From positions 1 through 35,636 of IMG/VR virus record IMGVR_UViG_3300024265_000143: DNA of 35,636 nt; one strand, given 5' to 3'. This document shows positions 2,775-35,636 of the stretch, piece by piece (positions within the stretch are counted from its first letter, which is position 1; the number at the start of each line of letters is the position of its first letter). The position numbers and the translations under genes are program-made. Source of the DNA: a virus. The notes beneath the pieces are model-generated. The model had not been told where the DNA came from and did no database searches. It saw nothing but the letters and a program-made list of their open reading frames with translations.

Positions 2775-3548
2775 TAGGTGCTCCCTTAGATCTGGCTTTA
2801 ATTTGTTCTGCTACATCTTTTGCAACAAAATTATCTATGATCGGAATAATATCCCAAGCATATCTTCTAATATAATTTTCAGTATTATATTCGTCGAACA
2901 GTATAGGTAATAGCATTAGTTCTTTGCCTAAGTATTGACCCGAAAAACTCTCCCATCTAGAAGGTAATTTATCATACATATCTAATACCATTTGAGTTTC
3001 TATATATAAATCATATCTATCTACAGGAACCTGTGCTTCATCTGGTTCAGTATTTAACATCTCACACATTTCATAATATTGTACTTTTGTTAAACCTGAA
3101 CCTGATTCAGTTATATAACTTTTTAATCTTTCGATTTCTCTATCGTACTGTTCGATGAAAAGTTTCCCAGGTCTGATAAAACCTCTGTTACCCAATTATC
3201 AAATATAGTACTTGATCGCATTAATTCTAAAGCATTATAATCAGAAAAAGCTAATTCCTTTTCAAGATCATCTCCTACATCTGCTAAAACTAATTCTTTA
3301 ACATATTTTACTTTGAAACCTTTCCAACCTTTTACTATAGATTTTACATATAGTTCTAAAAACATTTCATCATCAAATTCATCAATTGCTTGACGGGTTT
3401 TTGTATCAAATTTTGTTTTTTGACATTTTTTATATAAAGCCTGGTTGCTTTCTTTTGACAAATACGCTAAGTCAAAAGTTAAACCCTCGCATCCAGGAAA
3501 ATCAAAAGTCACTACCTTTTCAGATAGTAACATACTCTTTAAATCCAT
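2764..3548 (-). CDS. Tail assembly chaperone GT-type fusion by -1 ribosomal frameshift
   Basis: The frame 3123-3548 (G) and the frame ending at 2764 (T) overlap, and T is in the -1 frame relative to G. The overlap holds G GGA AAC at 3168-3162, in the correct zero frame (CTG GGA AAC, residues 127-129 of G). Slippage there gives a protein of about 261 aa that continues GKLFIEQYDREIERLK. By analogy with lambda gpG/gpGT, the fusion and the short form together chaperone the tape measure during tail assembly. The first ATG of the T frame (3195) lies inside the overlap and has no convincing ribosome site, so T is probably made only as the fusion. The downstream gene is the tape measure, as expected. 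Confidence 0.85.
3123..3548 (-). CDS. Tail assembly chaperone, short (G-like) form
   Basis: 141 aa product of normal decoding, starting MDLKSMLLSEKVVTFDFPG. The ATG at 3548 is preceded by AGAGGTG at good spacing. It is an acidic, helical protein ending in a Ser/Asn-rich tail, the usual character of gpG-like chaperones. It lies 13 nt after the upstream tube-like gene and before the tape measure. I assign function from synteny and from the slippery site near its 3' end, not from a recognised sequence motif. Confidence 0.8.
   Translation of the reverse strand: MDLKSMLLSEKVVTFDFPGCEGLTFDLAYLSKESNQALYKKCQKTKFDTKTRQAIDEFDDEMFLELYVKSIVKGWKGFKVKYVKELVLADVGDDLEKELAFSDYNALELMRSSTIFDNWVTEVLSDLGNFSSNSTIEKSKD
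3162..3168 (-). promoter_or_regulatory. -1 frameshift slippery heptamer GGGAAAC
   Basis: On the minus strand the sequence CTG GGA AAC places G GGA AAC exactly in X XXY YYZ register with the G frame. It sits 37 nt before the G stop codon at 3125-3123. The -1 frame is open from here to 2764. Confidence 0.88.
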
Positions 3549-3561
3549 GGTGAATCACCTC

Positions 3562-4572
3562 TTATGGCATATTATAAACAACTGTACTATAGTTACCAGA
3601 TTCTTCTTTTGCGACGAATTGAATATCTAGTGATATTATATCTCTAAAAATTTGTCTGGGAATTTGTAATAAAGTTTGTGGTATATTTAATTGTAAACTA
3701 GGAGCAGTTGCTCCGCCTACATTTATTGTTATATCAGCTAAATGAGTACTTTCATAAGTATCTGTTGCTGCATTAGTATTAATAGCGTTAAATAGATCTA
3801 CTGTTTCATTTGTACCTGATTTCATATAGAAAGTTAAACTTCCACTTATTCTTCTGTTTCCTGTAAAATGTCCTATTGGAATAGTAGTTTTTCCTAATAT
3901 ATTTCTACCAAAAAATATATTATTATTACTAAATCTTATAGTTCCCCCTATCAATGCTAATGTATAAGCTATTGAATTCATTGTCAAAGCAATTGTAGAT
4001 AGTTTATTCTTTAAAAAATTATTAGCAGTAGTTCTGTCTGTTGATGTGGGTGGAGTATTGTCCTCAGTTATACTTAATGCTTGTCCAGACCAACGTATTT
4101 CAACTATATTATTTATATCGAAACTAATATCAGCTGAATCAACAACTGCATTGTCTAATCTGTAATTTCCTTCGGATTGATTTGGTTGATCGAACCATAA
4201 AGTGAGATTTCGCAAAGTTGCTACATTTCCATTAGCAAAATCTATAGTAGAGCTAGTAGAGTTACTAGTCAGAGAGTCTACCCCCATTAAACTTACCCAT
4301 AAATATTCTTCTGGGCTTGTAACATTAGTATCTACCAAAGGTAAAACATAAGTTACAAAAGTAAACCGAACTGGGGATACCGCCGAAATGTGTGGCGCTA
4401 AAGTTCTGGTTTGTTCAGGATCTAATGTATTTCTTCCTACCGCGTCTAACCTACTATCTTTAACATAAGAAAAATCTCTTACTTTCAATTGCACCGTATT
4501 AGTTGCATCTGCACTAGCGTTCGGATTTTTTGAAATGTATATGTCAGTATCGCGTTTGAAAAAAACAGCCAT
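3562..4572 (-). CDS. Tail tube-like protein, paralog 2
   Basis: 336 aa beta-rich protein (Thr, Ser, Asn and Val rich). The C-terminal half resembles the neighbouring 405 aa protein: both contain NKLST, an ALxGG segment followed by a (S/A)NN motif, then GHFTG (here about residues 234-238) and a (R/T)(I/V)SG strand ending in K(S/T)G. I therefore read the two as ancient duplicates of one tail-tube fold. The product could be a minor tube protein, a tail-tip or initiator ring protein, or a tube decoration. It ends 13 nt before the chaperone gene. Tail role: good confidence; exact position in the particle: unknown. Confidence 0.7.
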   Translation of the reverse strand: MAVFFKRDTDIYISKNPNASADATNTVQLKVRDFSYVKDSRLDAVGRNTLDPEQTRTLAPHISAVSPVRFTFVTYVLPLVDTNVTSPEEYLWVSLMGVDSLTSNSTSSTIDFANGNVATLRNLTLWFDQPNQSEGNYRLDNAVVDSADISFDINNIVEIRWSGQALSITEDNTPPTSTDRTTANNFLKNKLSTIALTMNSIAYTLALIGGTIRFSNNNIFFGRNILGKTTIPIGHFTGNRRISGSLTFYMKSGTNETVDLFNAINTNAATDTYESTHLADITINVGGATAPSLQLNIPQTLLQIPRQIFRDIISLDIQFVAKEESGNYSTVVYNMP

Positions 4573-5858: not shown

Positions 5859-6293
5859 CTATACTTCGTATCTAACCTCTAGAGTAACTTCTCCTACACC
5901 TAGAGGGTTTAATAATCCTTCGTCGTCTGCTAAGGACAGTAATCTAATATCTTCACTAAGGTTATTACCCGCTACTGTTAGATTAAGATTGCTATCTATT
6001 ATGACTTCGATATCATCGAAAATTTCTTCTATTCTATCTTTGGCATCTTCATCATTAACATAAATTCTTATATTAATACCTAAAAATCCCCATTTAAAAC
6101 TACCAGGAAGATATTCTCTTGTTTCTGCGCCTGGATAAACACAGATTAAGGGATAGTCTGTGACTTCATCCCAAAATATTTGTCTACTCTTAACATTGTC
6201 AAACACGTTAGAAACAAAAGGACTACTACCATTCATATTTGTTTTAAATAGTCTGACTATTTCCTCTACAATTTGTGTTCTTTTATTAGCCAC
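5859..6293 (-). CDS. Tail terminator / tail completion-like protein
   Basis: 144 aa. Helical N-terminus (IVEEIVRLFKTNM) followed by strands such as YPLICVYPG and WGFLGINIRIYVND, then a helical DAKDRIEEIFDDIEVII segment and a terminal strand EVTLEVRYEV. This helix-strand-helix order is typical of gpU / T5 p142-like tail terminators. It also fits the position between the head-tail joining genes and the tube genes. It overlaps the upstream gene by 8 nt. No catalytic motif. Confidence 0.65.
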   Translation of the reverse strand: MANKRTQIVEEIVRLFKTNMNGSSPFVSNVFDNVKSRQIFWDEVTDYPLICVYPGAETREYLPGSFKWGFLGINIRIYVNDEDAKDRIEEIFDDIEVIIDSNLNLTVAGNNLSEDIRLLSLADDEGLLNPLGVGEVTLEVRYEV

Positions 6294-7761
6294 TAAGTTT
6301 CACCTTTACTCGTCTAAGAGTAGCTATTTGTTCTTGTTGTAATATTTGTCGAATAGATCGTCCAAATATACCTTTAGGGTCTCTTAGTTGCTTATGTAAT
6401 CTTCCCCCCTTTTCAAAAACCCCATATGGATTTCTCATATACTTTACTTGTGCCCCTAAAGCATTCTTTTCTTTTGTATCAAATAAAGATTGAACTTTAG
6501 CAGATCTAGCAAATCTTCCTGTTCTATAATTTAATTTTTGAGCAGATCCTCCTTTACCCATATTCTCTCTTATTTGATCGTGTAACCTGTCATTAATTAA
6601 ATCAATTAATTGTTGAATATTAGGGCTAGCTACCCTGGCCTCTCTTGATCTAGGTGTATCCTTATCAGCACTCAAACCTGGACCATATACTTTTATTTTT
6701 TGTTTTTTTCTAGCAGAGCTTTTAAAAACTTTATTTATACCGCCCTGTTTAGTTTTTCCTGTCACAAATATTTCTTCAAAAGCTAAAGCATATTGACTTA
6801 ATATTGTAGGACTAGCTGTATATCTTTTTACTAAATCTCTACTAACTACATTTAATATCTTTGTAGCTTCAGCTATAAGCTGTCTAGTTCTAGCTCCAGA
6901 AGTTTGATTATCTTCTGAAAACTCAGCTATAGTAATAGTAATAGTACCAGCCTTTCTACCAGAAGCTTTTAATAATCTAGTACGAATTGCTATACTAGCA
7001 TCAATTCTTATTAATTGATCTCTTATAGCTATTAATTTATTCTTTTCATCTACAGTTAAAAAGGTAGTAATTTGTGTACCTTCTTCACCTTTTTGTCCAA
7101 CAAAATGAACCAAATTTCCTATTCCAGGACCAAAAGTGTGGCCTACATCAAAACCTTGCTTCTTCTTTTTTGCAATAACAGATAGTGCTTGTCCGCTCTT
7201 TTCCGCTAATTTAAATATACCTTTTTCTCTATCTACTTCAATATGTTGAGGTCCTATATCCCCCCCTTTATTATCTTGTCGAATATCTAATCCACCAATA
7301 ACTATAGAAGCTGCTATTTGTTGTCTACGTTCAAGTTTACTGGTAGAAGTATTTATAGTTCTTAAAGCTTGTTCTCTAATATCTTTTCTAACATGAGTAG
7401 TTAAATCACTGATTGTTCTGAAATTAGTACCCTCTACGACATTTCTTTTAGCGTCAACCCAATCAACTTTACCTTTGACGTTGGCTTGATTGAAGTTTTT
7501 TTGTAATGAATTTTTAAAAGACATTTCTACAAAATCAACTACATCTTTCATGTTTATACCTGGAAACTTTTTTTGTATAATAGCTTTATGTTTGTTAACT
7601 AATTTAACTAAAGTTCTACGTTCTATAGAAAATTGTGTTATATTTCTATTTAAATCAGATCTTTTAGTACCTGGTCCCTTTTTAGTTCCTAATATTATTT
7701 GAGCAAAATCTCGAATAAATATTTGAAATAAAACCTCGTTTCCACCGCGTTCTAAAGCCAT
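6286..7761 (-). CDS. Neck / head-closure region protein, large (491 aa)
   Basis: The C-terminal ~90 residues (TGRFARS, then VKYMRNPYGVFEKGG) look like an HK97 gp10-type minor tail or neck protein. The N-terminal ~380 residues are lysine-rich and mostly helical and are not recognised. HK97 gp10 relatives are usually about 110-180 aa, so this is an extended or fused version. A G-rich stretch GFDVGHTFGPGIGNL lies near residue 205. Between the gp6-like connector and the tail terminator, a neck role is the natural inference. The start at 7761 abuts the upstream stop in a coupled arrangement. Confidence 0.55.
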   Translation of the reverse strand: MALERGGNEVLFQIFIRDFAQIILGTKKGPGTKRSDLNRNITQFSIERRTLVKLVNKHKAIIQKKFPGINMKDVVDFVEMSFKNSLQKNFNQANVKGKVDWVDAKRNVVEGTNFRTISDLTTHVRKDIREQALRTINTSTSKLERRQQIAASIVIGGLDIRQDNKGGDIGPQHIEVDREKGIFKLAEKSGQALSVIAKKKKQGFDVGHTFGPGIGNLVHFVGQKGEEGTQITTFLTVDEKNKLIAIRDQLIRIDASIAIRTRLLKASGRKAGTITITIAEFSEDNQTSGARTRQLIAEATKILNVVSRDLVKRYTASPTILSQYALAFEEIFVTGKTKQGGINKVFKSSARKKQKIKVYGPGLSADKDTPRSREARVASPNIQQLIDLINDRLHDQIRENMGKGGSAQKLNYRTGRFARSAKVQSLFDTKEKNALGAQVKYMRNPYGVFEKGGRLHKQLRDPKGIFGRSIRQILQQEQIATLRRVKVKLSG

Positions 7762-32979: not shown

Positions 32980-33008
32980 TTGAAATGTTATACTAATTTT
33001 GATATAAT
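32980..33008 (+). promoter_or_regulatory. Promoter
   Basis: TTGAAA, 17 nt, TATAAT; second of a tandem pair ahead of the 31 aa peptide. Confidence 0.75.
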
Positions 33009-33045
33009 ATATAAAGTGAAAAATAAATGAGGAGGCAACATTAAA

Positions 33046-33141
33046 ATGATTGATCCCTCAATACTTAATTGGTCGGTTGTTATTTTTATATTTCTAACTA
33101 CATGGTTGTTAGTAACTATGGGAGATACTGACGGTAAATAG
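33046..33141 (+). CDS. 31 aa membrane peptide
   Basis: ATG with GAGGAGG upstream; MIDPSILNWSVVIFIFLTTW..., one helix. Confidence 0.5.
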   Translation: MIDPSILNWSVVIFIFLTTWLLVTMGDTDGK

Positions 33142-33162
33142 TTAGCAATGGAAAAATAATTC

Positions 33163-33191
33163 TTGACAATACGGTGAAAATTTCGTATAAT
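33163..33191 (+). promoter_or_regulatory. Perfect consensus promoter of structured RNA 1
   Basis: TTGACA, 17 nt, TATAAT. No ORF follows for more than 550 nt, so it serves an RNA. Confidence 0.9.
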
Positions 33192-33197
33192 ATAGAT

Positions 33198-33728
33198 ATA
33201 AATTTTAATAACCCGCGAACAAATGAAATCCTCTTGGGAGAGTGTTATTAGTAACGGGTTTAGTCTGCGGATATTAGACTTAAATTCAAGTATGCCCCGC
33301 CTGATAAGCGTAAGAACTATCACAGTTTTCCGCCGCTGAGTGGCGGGTTCTATAAATAACCAGCAGGCGCTTGTATGCCAAGCGATGAAATAATAGGCAT
33401 GGGTTCATTAGCTTCATGATACTATAACCCCGGACTAATAGGTAGAGAGCGACGGCATTCTGCTTTACCGAAAAATAGAAAGCGGTAGATACTGATTATT
33501 AGATTAATGTATCGTCAGGTGTCGGAGTCATACGTTCCCCTTGGCGTCATTGCCAGACGTAAAAGGCAAATCTAATCCACGATGAAGAGTTGTTAGTGTT
33601 AGATTAGTAAAGGATATAAGGGCTTTGATAGGGGTCTTATACCGGACTTAGAAGCAACTAGTATTTTAAGGTAAACAACCACCGGAAATGCCAGTTAAAC
33701 TATTCGTCCGCCCCACGACACGGGGCAT
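33198..33728 (+). ncRNA. Large structured RNA 1 (~530 nt)
   Basis: No coding potential on the plus strand, but dense helices: AACCCG/CGGGTT (33210/33255), CCGCC/GGCGG (near 33330-33346), CGCTTG-TATGC-CAAGCG (33368-33384) whose loop can also pair with GGCAT at 33396 (pseudoknot), TACCG/CGGTA, TACGT/ACGTA enclosing TGGC/GCCA (33531-33561) with a second possible pseudoknot TTGCC/GGCAA, and ATCTAA/TTAGAT. It ends with GCCCC-ACGACAC-GGGGC. Size, pseudoknots and proximity to tRNAs recall ROOL/GOLLD-type phage RNAs, but I cannot confirm a family. Confidence 0.75.
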
Positions 33729-33763
33729 TTATAATCAAACATATTCATAGAGTATTTTTAATT

Positions 33764-33958
33764 ATGGACAAAGAAAAAGAAGATCAACCAAAGGATTATG
33801 TAGAATTTGCAGATTTTCTTAGGGACGAATATAGTTTTTTAACTTGGAATCAAAAGATTTTATATCGTTTGCAAAACCATGTAATCAAGGTAATACTATT
33901 TGTTTTTATGGCAGGAATTTTTACTGGAGCTTATTTAGATAAGTTTCAAATATTATAA
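33764..33958 (+). CDS. 64 aa membrane protein between two giant RNAs
   Basis: Starts MDKEKEDQPKDYVEFADFL; acidic N-terminus and one transmembrane helix near the C-terminus (VIKVILFVFMAGIFTGAYL). The only gene in the last 2.5 kb of the window. No strong Shine-Dalgarno (AGAGTAT). Confidence 0.5.
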   Translation: MDKEKEDQPKDYVEFADFLRDEYSFLTWNQKILYRLQNHVIKVILFVFMAGIFTGAYLDKFQIL

Positions 33959-33960
33959 GG

Positions 33961-34536
33961 TTTTGGCTCAGAGGTAACGTGCTGCAGCGGTTGTGCTTAA
34001 CAACCTTAAAGTCGGGTTAAATTATATGGATAAACTAATATGATGGGAATTAAGGGCTGTTTGGAGTCCTGGCTTCGGCCGCAGATAATCTAGGGCGACC
34101 TAGAAAAAGGAAGAGATTATTCATATCTTCCACCAGGTGACTGGCCTATCTAAGCAAGCTAATGTGCCCTAACCCCTACGTGGGTTGCTTCAATCATTAT
34201 AGGTTGGAGATAAGGTCTACACAGTAGAGGAGATAACTGGATTCGCTGCCCTTTCGGGGGATAACCAAGGTCTGGGAACTAACAGGTTGTGCTGAGTGAA
34301 GCCTTTAACAAAGCTGTTACACTGTAAGGTAAATTAGTAATATAGCAAGTCCAAGAAAGTAATCGAGGGCGGCTATGTAATATCAACGAGAACGGTGCAA
34401 TGCCTAGTAACGTGAAGTATAGCTGAGTATCTGACAAGAGAAAGGTATCGGACGGGTTGTATTTTGTAGCTCAAAAAGGTTGCGAATCAACAGAGGTAGC
34501 TCGTTTGTGGATAAATGGTTAATTTTAAGTGATTAC
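33961..34536 (+). ncRNA. Large structured RNA 2, 5' domain
   Basis: Gene-free. Hairpins include GGTTG/CAACC (near 33990-34006), GGC-TTCG-GCC (34071-34080), CTAGG-GCGA-CCTAG with a GNRA loop inside GATAATC/GATTATT (34084-34120), AAGCAA/TTGCTT enclosing AACCC/GGGTT (34153-34190), TAACAG/CTGTTA (34281-34320), and GGCTAT/ATAGCT (34371-34424) with an AGTA...GAA loop-E-like element. It runs directly into the permuted tRNA with no terminator, so it is probably one transcript with it. Confidence 0.65.
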
Positions 34537-34667
34537 GCAGGTTCGAATCCTGCCGGGATCGCCAAAATAACATTAGTGTGAAAGGAAACATAATTTATAG
34601 TCTCCGTCTAGTGTTATTCTGATGATCCCGTAGCTGAGTCAGGTTTAGCAATTTCATGTCTAGGAAT
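34537..34667 (+). tRNA. Circularly permuted tRNA-Asp (GUC)
   Basis: The 3' part comes first: T arm GCAGG-TTCGAAT-CCTGC (34537-34553), acceptor CGGGATC (34554-34560), G73 and encoded CCA (34562-34564). After a 59-nt linker comes the 5' part: acceptor GATCCCG (34624-34630), TA, D arm GCTG...GG...TAGC (34633-34649), and anticodon arm ATTTC-ATGTCTA-GGAAT (34651-34667) with GTC at 34658-34660. All stems pair and U33, G18G19 and T54-T55-C56 are present; G73 fits Asp. The break falls in the variable loop. Linker strands AATAACATTAG (34566) and CTAGTGTTATT (34608) pair and stack on the acceptor. Sequences outside also pair (TTAAGT/ACTTAA, TTAC/GTAA). Confidence 0.82.
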
Positions 34668-35305
34668 AAACATCGTAAATGATAACATAACTTAATGCAA
34701 AGACTACCTCGGTACGATAGTGAAAATAGCTTAAACCTGAACTCACTTAGGTGGGAATTCAGGGTCGGACAGCTCGCAAGGCTAGAAGGTTTGATGGAAA
34801 GTCGCACGTAAGGGATTAGCGTCCTTGTACAGCTCTGATTAAAGGGTTGGCGGTACACCGAACATTGAGTAGCAATCGTATGACAGCTCGACACGCCGAC
34901 GAGTCTAAACTAGGCAGCTATGTAATAGTAGTGGTAGGAACCACTGGATAAAGTCTTAAGATAGAGGGATACGCAACCTCAATTGTACGGGAACTAAAGC
35001 TATTACGTAAAAGGTATAATCTCAGCCTTTTAAGAATATTTTAATAAGTGGTGCAGATAAGCTAATAGCGCAGGGGAATACTAATAGTTACGTAACCTGA
35101 ATCTGAGAATGCTATCAATATGTAGTACGATGCGCTGGTAACTAAGTAATAATTGGAAAACATATATATAGTCAGTAGGTAGAGGTGCAAACTCTAAGTC
35201 TGACCACCACTTATTAAAATATTTTTAACACCGGAAAGTCGGACTCATTAGACGCTTCTATTAAATGAAGAATTTCGCAGGAGGATTCCCTGCTCTGGTG
35301 GCCAA
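34668..35305 (+). ncRNA. Large structured RNA 2, 3' domain
   Basis: Gene-free continuation after the permuted tRNA. A long-range, nearly 19-bp helix joins 35034-35053 (AATATTTTAATAAGTGGT core) with 35205-35224 and encloses about 150 nt of further hairpins, including GTCAG/CTGAC. Other helices: GTAATAG/CTATTAC (34922/35000), AGTGG/CCACT, GAGG/CCTC, CTTC/GAAG and GCAGG/CCTGC (35277-35293). The motif GCTATGTAATA occurs in both 5' and 3' domains (34373 and 34917), suggesting repeated subdomains. Confidence 0.65.
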
Positions 35306-35311
35306 ACTATT

Positions 35312-35388
35312 GCCGAGGTAACTCAGAGAAAGAGTGCTTGGAGCTTGACTCCAGGAAGTCAGTGGTTGAAGTCCACTTCTCGGCTCCA
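35312..35388 (+). tRNA. tRNA-like, degenerate loops (anticodon unclear)
   Basis: Acceptor GCCGAGG/TCTCGGC (one G-T), D stem ACTC/GAGT, anticodon stem TTGG/CCAG with 6 bp around GCTTGAC, T stem AGTGG/CCACT, T73 and encoded CCA. Oddities: no G18G19 in the D loop, TTGAAGT T loop lacking C56, and no U33. The elbow contact would be lost, so this may be a non-decoding tRNA-like element or a decaying tRNA (UUG, Gln, would be the centre of the loop). Confidence 0.6.
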
Positions 35389-35511
35389 TATTACGCGATT
35401 ATGTTTTTAATAGACAGTTTATGATTGGATGTATAAGTTTAGGTTCTGCAGAACCACTCTTCAAGAAGGTCAAAGACGATGGTGAAACCCCATCTTTTCG
35501 CTCCAAATTAT

Positions 35512-35560
35512 GACGCCGAAGCATATCATTCAGGGATATGGACCGGATAAAGCGTCGCCA
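35512..35560 (+). other. Minimal tRNA-like hairpin with CCA
   Basis: GACGC/GCGTC stem followed by G-CCA, enclosing a CATATC-ATTCAGG-GATATG hairpin with a 7-nt loop. No D or T arm. Sits 6 nt before the terminal tRNA. Confidence 0.35.
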
Positions 35561-35566
35561 TATTAT

Positions 35567-35636
35567 TGCGGGATAGAGCAGTCCGGCAGCTCGTTAGCCT
35601 CATAAGCTAAAGGTCGGCGGTTCAAATCCGTCTCCC
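35567..35636 (+). tRNA. tRNA-Met (CAU), cut by window end
   Basis: TGCGGGA acceptor, D arm GAGC...GCTC with A11-T24 and an initiator-like D loop, anticodon arm TTAGC-CTCATAA-GCTAA, T arm GGCGG-TTCAAAT-CCGTC (one G-T pair). The last few bases lie outside. The D arm looks like initiator tRNA, but the anticodon stem lacks the three G-C pairs of tRNA-fMet, so initiator versus elongator is undecided. Confidence 0.88.

Follow-up and report, generated by a model that had tools for sequence, protein, structure and literature searches.

The window, the whole 35,636-nucleotide stretch analyzed here, is an IMG/VR phage record in which terminase, portal, capsid, and tail genes lie on the minus strand. 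Its right end carries a GOLLD RNA, then tRNA-like elements, and then tRNA-Met. The element of interest, for which the name TL-C is used here, starts 7 nt past the end of its upstream neighbor, TL-B, and is separated by 178 nt from the tRNA-Met downstream. The features are as follows:

34449..35028, plus strand: GOLLD RNA (Rfam RF02032, 100.2 bits, E = 1.5e-26, which is under the family cut-off of 150; context only)
35229..35304, plus strand: TL-B, tRNA-like element CACCGGA...TCTGGTG with a GCCA end and the T-loop AGGATTC
35312..35388, plus strand: TL-C, tRNA-like element of 77 nt with TCCA, assigned from its sequence, Rfam tRNA score (38.6 bits), and fold
35312..35318, plus strand: TL-C acceptor 5' strand GCCGAGG (partner strand, 35378-35384), followed by TA
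35321..35335, plus strand: TL-C D-arm ACTC-AGAGAAA-GAGT, loop without G18G19, followed by G
35337..35355, plus strand: TL-C anticodon-arm equivalent CTTGGAG-CTTGA-CTCCAGG, either 7 bp with the 5-nt loop CUUGA or 5 bp with a 7-nt loop containing C33, followed by AAGTC
35361..35377, plus strand: TL-C T-arm AGTGG-TTGAAGT-CCACT, C56 replaced by G
35378..35388, plus strand: TL-C acceptor 3' strand TCTCGGC and TCCA
35567..35636, plus strand: ordinary tRNA-Met(CAT), truncated by the window end; the next canonical gene of the array

The cloverleaf of TL-C is its minimum-free-energy fold (-28.2 kcal/mol; z = -1.74 against shuffles, a modest value), with stems of 7 bp (acceptor), 4 bp (D), 7 bp (anticodon), and 5 bp (T), all of ordinary length except for the anticodon arm, and TCCA at the end. 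The Rfam tRNA model scores this element well above its cut-off of 29 bits, with an E value of 5.1e-6 in a 2.3-kb search; TL-C is therefore more than a chance resemblance. Thus, the best fold, the tRNA score, and the terminal TCCA confirm the claim of a preceding sequence-only reading that the cloverleaf and CCA are kept at this locus. Among the hallmarks of a canonical elongator tRNA (RF00005), the 7-bp acceptor, 4-bp D, and 5-bp T stems and the NCCA end are present; the combination of G18G19 with T54-T55-C56 and the 7-nt anticodon loop with U33 are absent. The D-loop AGAGAAA contains no GG, and the T-loop TTGAAGT, with G at position 56, is a single substitution away from the ordinary TTCAAGT. 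In the best fold, a 5-nt loop caps the 7-bp anticodon arm; read instead as 5 bp with the 7-nt loop GCUUGAC, the arm has C at position 33, followed by UUG as the "anticodon." U33 is absent in either reading, and the joint loss of G18G19, C56, and U33 that the sequence-only reading had described is real. Loop-loop complementarity replacing the elbow contact was considered by eye and dropped.

The 7-nt reading, in which UUG is followed by A37, is compatible with a working but unusual elongator, for example, a tRNA-Gln(UUG) with C33. Such an elongator is, in our estimate, very improbable: the elbow contacts are absent on both sides, the counterparts of TL-C described below have best folds without a 7-nt anticodon loop, and an ordinary tRNA-Gln(TTG) is already present in two related arrays (L012, position 15746; L013, position 7422). 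TL-C was absent from the fast whole-window Rfam run, from tRNA-family searches of the records, and from the ARAGORN calls. The tmRNA models gave no match over TL-C, their sole hit (12.6 bits; cut-off, 47) being at 34475-34554.

With the 64-aa neighboring protein as the query, two contigs were retrieved. One of these (L002) equals the window over 33001-35636, with TL-C unchanged, and its 53-kb record extends the array, with 16 tRNAs called by ARAGORN in the last 12.2 kb; the other (L003) equals the window over 33001-34842 and stops short of TL-C. The array proteins used as queries led to one sister phage (L012), which shares with the window phage the order GOLLD, Met, Ala, Thr, Gly, Lys, has a phosphoesterase at 70% against that of the window phage, and gives a GOLLD match of 116.7 bits. 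A further contig (L013; 68%) covers the array only in its later part. GOLLD had no match in the records of L009, L010, and L013.

Several other structured elements were observed in these arrays. The GOLLD linker at 34537-34649 contains a circularly permuted tRNA-like module, in the order T-arm (TTCGAAT), acceptor 3' strand with GCCA, a loop closed by a long inverted repeat, acceptor 5' strand, and GG-bearing D-arm; the L012 GOLLD linker (3125-3181) folds in the same way with other letters (ACCCCCC/GGGGGGT). Between GOLLD and TL-B, both phages have a hairpin domain of ∼180 to 200 nt (35030-35228; L012, 3533-3714) whose closing stem is a long AT-rich inverted repeat and whose inner sequence differs between them. 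Non-tRNA array elements that are apparently common to both phages are found at L002 7886-8032 and L012 3894-4040, at L004 2324-2418 and L012 5728-5820, and at L002 8466-8524 and L012 4383-4441; among them, one has a GGGG/CCCC closing stem, one is 83.9% identical over 62 nt, and one has, in the window phage, a TACGGTT/AACTGTA closing stem with GCCA. The arrays also include a permuted (two-piece) tmRNA (L012, 14179-14587; L013, 6008-6415; tmRNA_permuted, 119.4 and 93.4 bits), with the tag ANDNIIAFPIVGNDFGIEAELAMAA in L012; the window phage contig (end of L004) stops in the stretch aligned with the tmRNA start.

The TL-C counterpart in L012 occupies 4045-4120, between tRNA-Met and tRNA-Ala, and reads GCCGAGG-TA-GCTC-AGTTACGTA-GAGC-...-AGTGT-CTCGTCA-GCACT-TCTTGGC-TTCA. 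First spotted by eye, it is also found by a laxer scan (stems, T8, and D stem; CCA not required) as one of three nonordinary L012 hits. G18G19 is absent, a capped hairpin replaces the anticodon loop, and the 3' end is TTCA. At the site that TL-C occupies in the window, L012 has TL-B followed directly by tRNA-Met; thus, the position of the TL-C-like element in the array differs, and no ordinary tRNA with intact loops stands at the TL-C site in this phage, the one relative in which the site can be checked.

The comparison of the two elements revealed an inverted pattern of conservation. Between the window and L012, 13/14 acceptor letters, 8/10 T-stem letters, and 27/32 of all stem letters are identical, compared with 1/7 in the T-loop (stems versus T-loop, Fisher P = 0.0009). 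All 16 pairs are preserved; one pair of the D stem and one of the T stem have changed on both sides. Across 15 pairs of ordinary tRNAs from the same two phages, identity is highest in the T-loop (81%), lower in the T stem (65%), and lowest in the acceptor (59%), all three percentages being depressed by the Met pair, which is out of register by one. The order of conservation in TL-C is therefore reversed relative to these tRNAs. A similar contrast is seen in TL-B, whose L012 counterpart (3715-3806) is identical to it in 11/14 acceptor, 8/10 T-stem, and 1/7 T-loop letters. The acceptor and T stem of TL-B show compensatory paired changes around unrelated T-loops, and the 24 nt around its anticodon arm (GCTTCTATTAAATGAAGAATTTCG), which forms a 4-bp stem and an 8-nt loop rather than the ordinary 7-nt loop, are identical in the two phages. 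A TL-B pattern scan of viral contigs matched these two known phages only.

A third element was found, by its stem-letter pattern, in an unrelated phage (L044; a 62.8-kb record with EF-Ts and glutamine synthetase). This element (L044a; 6015-6097, minus strand) reads GCCGAGA...AGTGT-TCACCAG-ACACT-TCTTGGC-ACCA and has a neighbor (L044b; 5934-6011, minus strand) with an arm capped by UUCG; two more tRNA-like elements lie upstream, and all are spaced by 3 nt. Both L044a and L044b have GG in their D-loops. Picking the L044 copy by stem letters favors high stem identity from the outset, and this identity is therefore not independent evidence. Across the four elements (window, L012, L044a, and L044b), the discriminator base varies (U, U, A, and G), as do the anticodon-arm loops of the best folds (CUUGA, AAUA, AUUG, and UUCG), and the best folds of all but the window element fall short of the full cloverleaf. 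ARAGORN calls neither the L012 nor the L044 counterpart. Next to the tRNA-like elements, L044 also carries a repeated Y-RNA-like motif (∼6330-6900, minus strand; AAGCTTACATAC ... AACAGCTT, by eye), one copy of which combines a weak YrlA match (27.8 bits; cut-off, 69) with a permuted tRNA-like module; none of five records searched, the L044 record included, gave a match to Ro protein (TROVE).

The closest ordinary stems found for TL-C are those of bacterial tRNA-Phe. A scan of 84,980 species genomes for the D-arm start and T stem hit two places, both of them ordinary tRNA-Phe(GAA) genes. With one such gene (L067), the window element shares 29/32 stem letters, the L012 element 28/32, and L044a 27/32, whereas T-loop sharing is 4/7, 3/7, and 1/7, respectively; pooled, the stems agree at 84/96 positions and the T-loops at 8/21 (Fisher P = 7e-6), a comparison in which stem identity is again partly built in, the L067 yardstick having also been found via a pattern of stem letters. 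Since all three elements share 27 to 29 of 32 stem letters with this tRNA, the parent of TL-C probably had Phe-type stems. The window copy has the least changed T-loop of the three, one step from TTCAAGT.

This kinship is also what would be expected of a decaying pseudogene, that is, a captured Phe-like tRNA whose loops were lost neutrally and whose counterparts are independently decayed copies. Along with the closeness of all three sets of stems to tRNA-Phe, the unconserved array position fits decay, as do the state of the L012 copy, which has no CCA and scores 16.3 bits as a tRNA, and the failure to find the L044 copy as a tRNA at E values up to 1. Neutral decay, however, should strike stems and loops equally, whereas the stems are far better kept than the T-loops. 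The loss of stem pairing expected of pseudogenes was not observed: in the window, L012, and L044a elements, all 48 pairs of the acceptor, D, and T stems are intact, a count over few sequences, one of them (L044a) selected by its stem letters. With L044b included, 63/64 such cells pair, and 5/16 pairs show two-sided change; a neutral simulation put the chance of keeping 16 pairs with at least 5 changes below 0.0004 at every rate tried. In 5,671 element pairs, the mean stem identity was 9/24, and the three TL-C elements share 20 to 22. L044a and L044b do not themselves show the inverted pattern (stems, 22/32; T-loop, 4/7; P = 0.67). We consider decay a possible but somewhat doubtful account of TL-C. 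The sequence-only reading had asked about conservation of the stems in relatives and favored a change of shape or function over plain decay; the acceptor, D, and T stems kept in the counterparts through two-sided changes, around loops that differ, speak in its favor.

Retention of the acceptor and T stems while the loops and CCA are free could also reflect a role in cis, in which these two stems only direct RNase P and 3' processing of a long array transcript. RNase P needs the acceptor plus the T stem, and the 178 nt between TL-C and tRNA-Met could possibly hold cargo. Nevertheless, TL-B and TL-C are only 7 nt apart, and the four L044 elements are spaced by 3 nt with nothing between them to release; there is thus no cargo to free in cis at these junctions, which makes processing punctuation less likely. 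Furthermore, ordinary tRNAs already serve in this way, and the D stem and the capped anticodon hairpin are kept as well. Overall, we regard such punctuation as unlikely.

A structural scan of 10 loci, requiring a 7-bp acceptor, a 5-bp T stem with a 7-nt loop, and NCCA, yielded 65 elements, a few of them counted twice where loci overlap; 52 had the T-loop TTCRA and 13 did not, including three with TTTGA and two (L062 and L063) that look like chance. Five Markov resamplings of the same DNA gave no hits. In six annotated tRNA-bearing phages used as a control, 13 ordinary T-loops and 1 other were found when CCA was required, and 52 ordinary and 9 other when it was not. Some hits of the laxer scan are due to chance, and the most that these counts suggest is a rarity of such elements in other phage arrays. 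As read by eye from the structural scan, three sister-phage tRNAs (L012, 5652-5727 and 11925-11999; L064, 7373-7449, minus strand) combine G18A19 in the D-loop with the T-loop TTTGA, giving A19-U56 instead of the elbow pair G19-C56. An annotated "tRNA-OTHER (undetermined)" in Mycobacterium phage Phabba (L083, 15375-15440) adjoins a tmRNA and has a T-loop that looks ordinary.

In pattern scans of viral contigs, GTCAGTG N6-12 CACTTCTYGGC matched 11 stretches: two already known, one (L044) newly found within a tRNA array, and eight others in whose loci ARAGORN calls no tRNA. CCGAGRTARYTCAG N24-44 GTCAGTG gave 14 matches, 3 already known and 11 without an ARAGORN tRNA. A covariance model (R1) built from the L012 and the two L044 elements scored the window TL-C at 48.9 bits and ordinary tRNAs at up to 50.3, and R1 as proof of a family was dropped, since it does not separate TL-C from ordinary tRNAs. 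Among capsid relatives (21 loci), GOLLD was absent in the 8 records searched and an R1 match in 14; these records are fragments of 4 to 46 kb with no tRNA-like match, and their blanks say nothing against TL-C. An exonuclease alignment scan gave 12 loci; ARAGORN, run on nine of them, called tRNAs in L071 (the record of L009) alone. BLAST against phages returned six records for TL-C alone, only at E values of 3 to 10, the 5' part of tRNA genes for the L012 copy, and no records for the L044 stretch. A phage attachment site in a host tRNA gene was likewise rejected, since conservation extends to the 5' acceptor strand and the D stem and no integrase was found (37 proteins scanned, matching 8 Pfam families; the structural half lay outside the set).

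Taken together, the sequences point to a repurposed tRNA more than to a dead copy, given the similar element in the sister phage. The reading we tentatively prefer, on three phages only, is a tRNA-derived RNA, unable to decode, whose stems are the reason for its retention and which most likely works in trans as a mimic or decoy. Like a pseudo-tRNA, TL-C descends from a tRNA, has lost the determinants of translation, and keeps the fold. It would be transcribed together with the array, excised like a tRNA, and then occupy an enzyme that recognizes the acceptor/T-stem half of tRNAs, while staying out of translation; candidate targets are a host defense nuclease acting on tRNAs, a processing or modifying enzyme, and a synthetase. 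The sequence-only reading had suggested, more specifically, a CCA-ended decoy or an aminoacylation mimic; the TTCA end of the L012 copy speaks against any requirement for an encoded CCA in such an RNA. The broader proposal, a family of decoding-incompetent tRNA mimics in unrelated phages, with conserved Phe-type acceptor, D, and T stems and free loops, that decoy host enzymes attacking or processing tRNAs via the acceptor/T half, is rather unlikely at this stage. Phage tRNA arrays are read as serving codon supply or as replacing tRNAs that defenses have destroyed. If the preferred reading is correct, a non-decoding, tRNA-shaped RNA is a part of such arrays that works as a mimic or decoy, and such elements have been overlooked, ARAGORN calling none of TL-C and the L012 and L044 copies.

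Among the papers listed by literature searches, no title or abstract opening describes an anticodon-less tRNA-like RNA in phage tRNA arrays. Several known systems resemble TL-C in part. The staphylococcal non-proteinogenic tRNA-Gly likewise has no G18G19 and avoids translation; unlike TL-C, it keeps its anticodon and serves in cell wall synthesis. RNAs C and D of the T4 tRNA cluster are also stable RNAs of unknown role and are longer than TL-C. YrlA, a bacterial Y RNA (RF02553), is an example of tRNA mimicry by a non-tRNA RNA, but its tRNA-like module is permuted and that of TL-C is not, and no YrlA or Y RNA match over TL-C was found in the Rfam runs on the window and the window stretch. Defense systems offer a different parallel. 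Phage tRNAs have been proposed to evade host defenses that target tRNAs (PMC10264068, PMC11555353), and these reports, together with PMC12851939, describe phage tRNAs that counter tRNA-cutting defenses and a Cas12a3 that cuts tRNA tails. Such defenses make a decoy plausible by analogy, without being evidence that TL-C is one; the first two reports concern phage tRNAs (the title of one names anticodon-loop mutations), whereas TL-C folds without an ordinary anticodon loop. A further partial likeness is the Bacillus cereus pseudo-tRNA tRNA(Other), which, according to PMC3399842, is poorly charged in vitro and stays off polysomes; the same source cites pseudo-tRNAs in peptidoglycan synthesis. As described there, tRNA(Other) is, like the predicted TL-C RNA, a tRNA-like gene outside translation that is kept for another role, but it lies on a bacterial chromosome and has a Trp anticodon, whereas TL-C lies in a phage tRNA array and has no ordinary anticodon loop.
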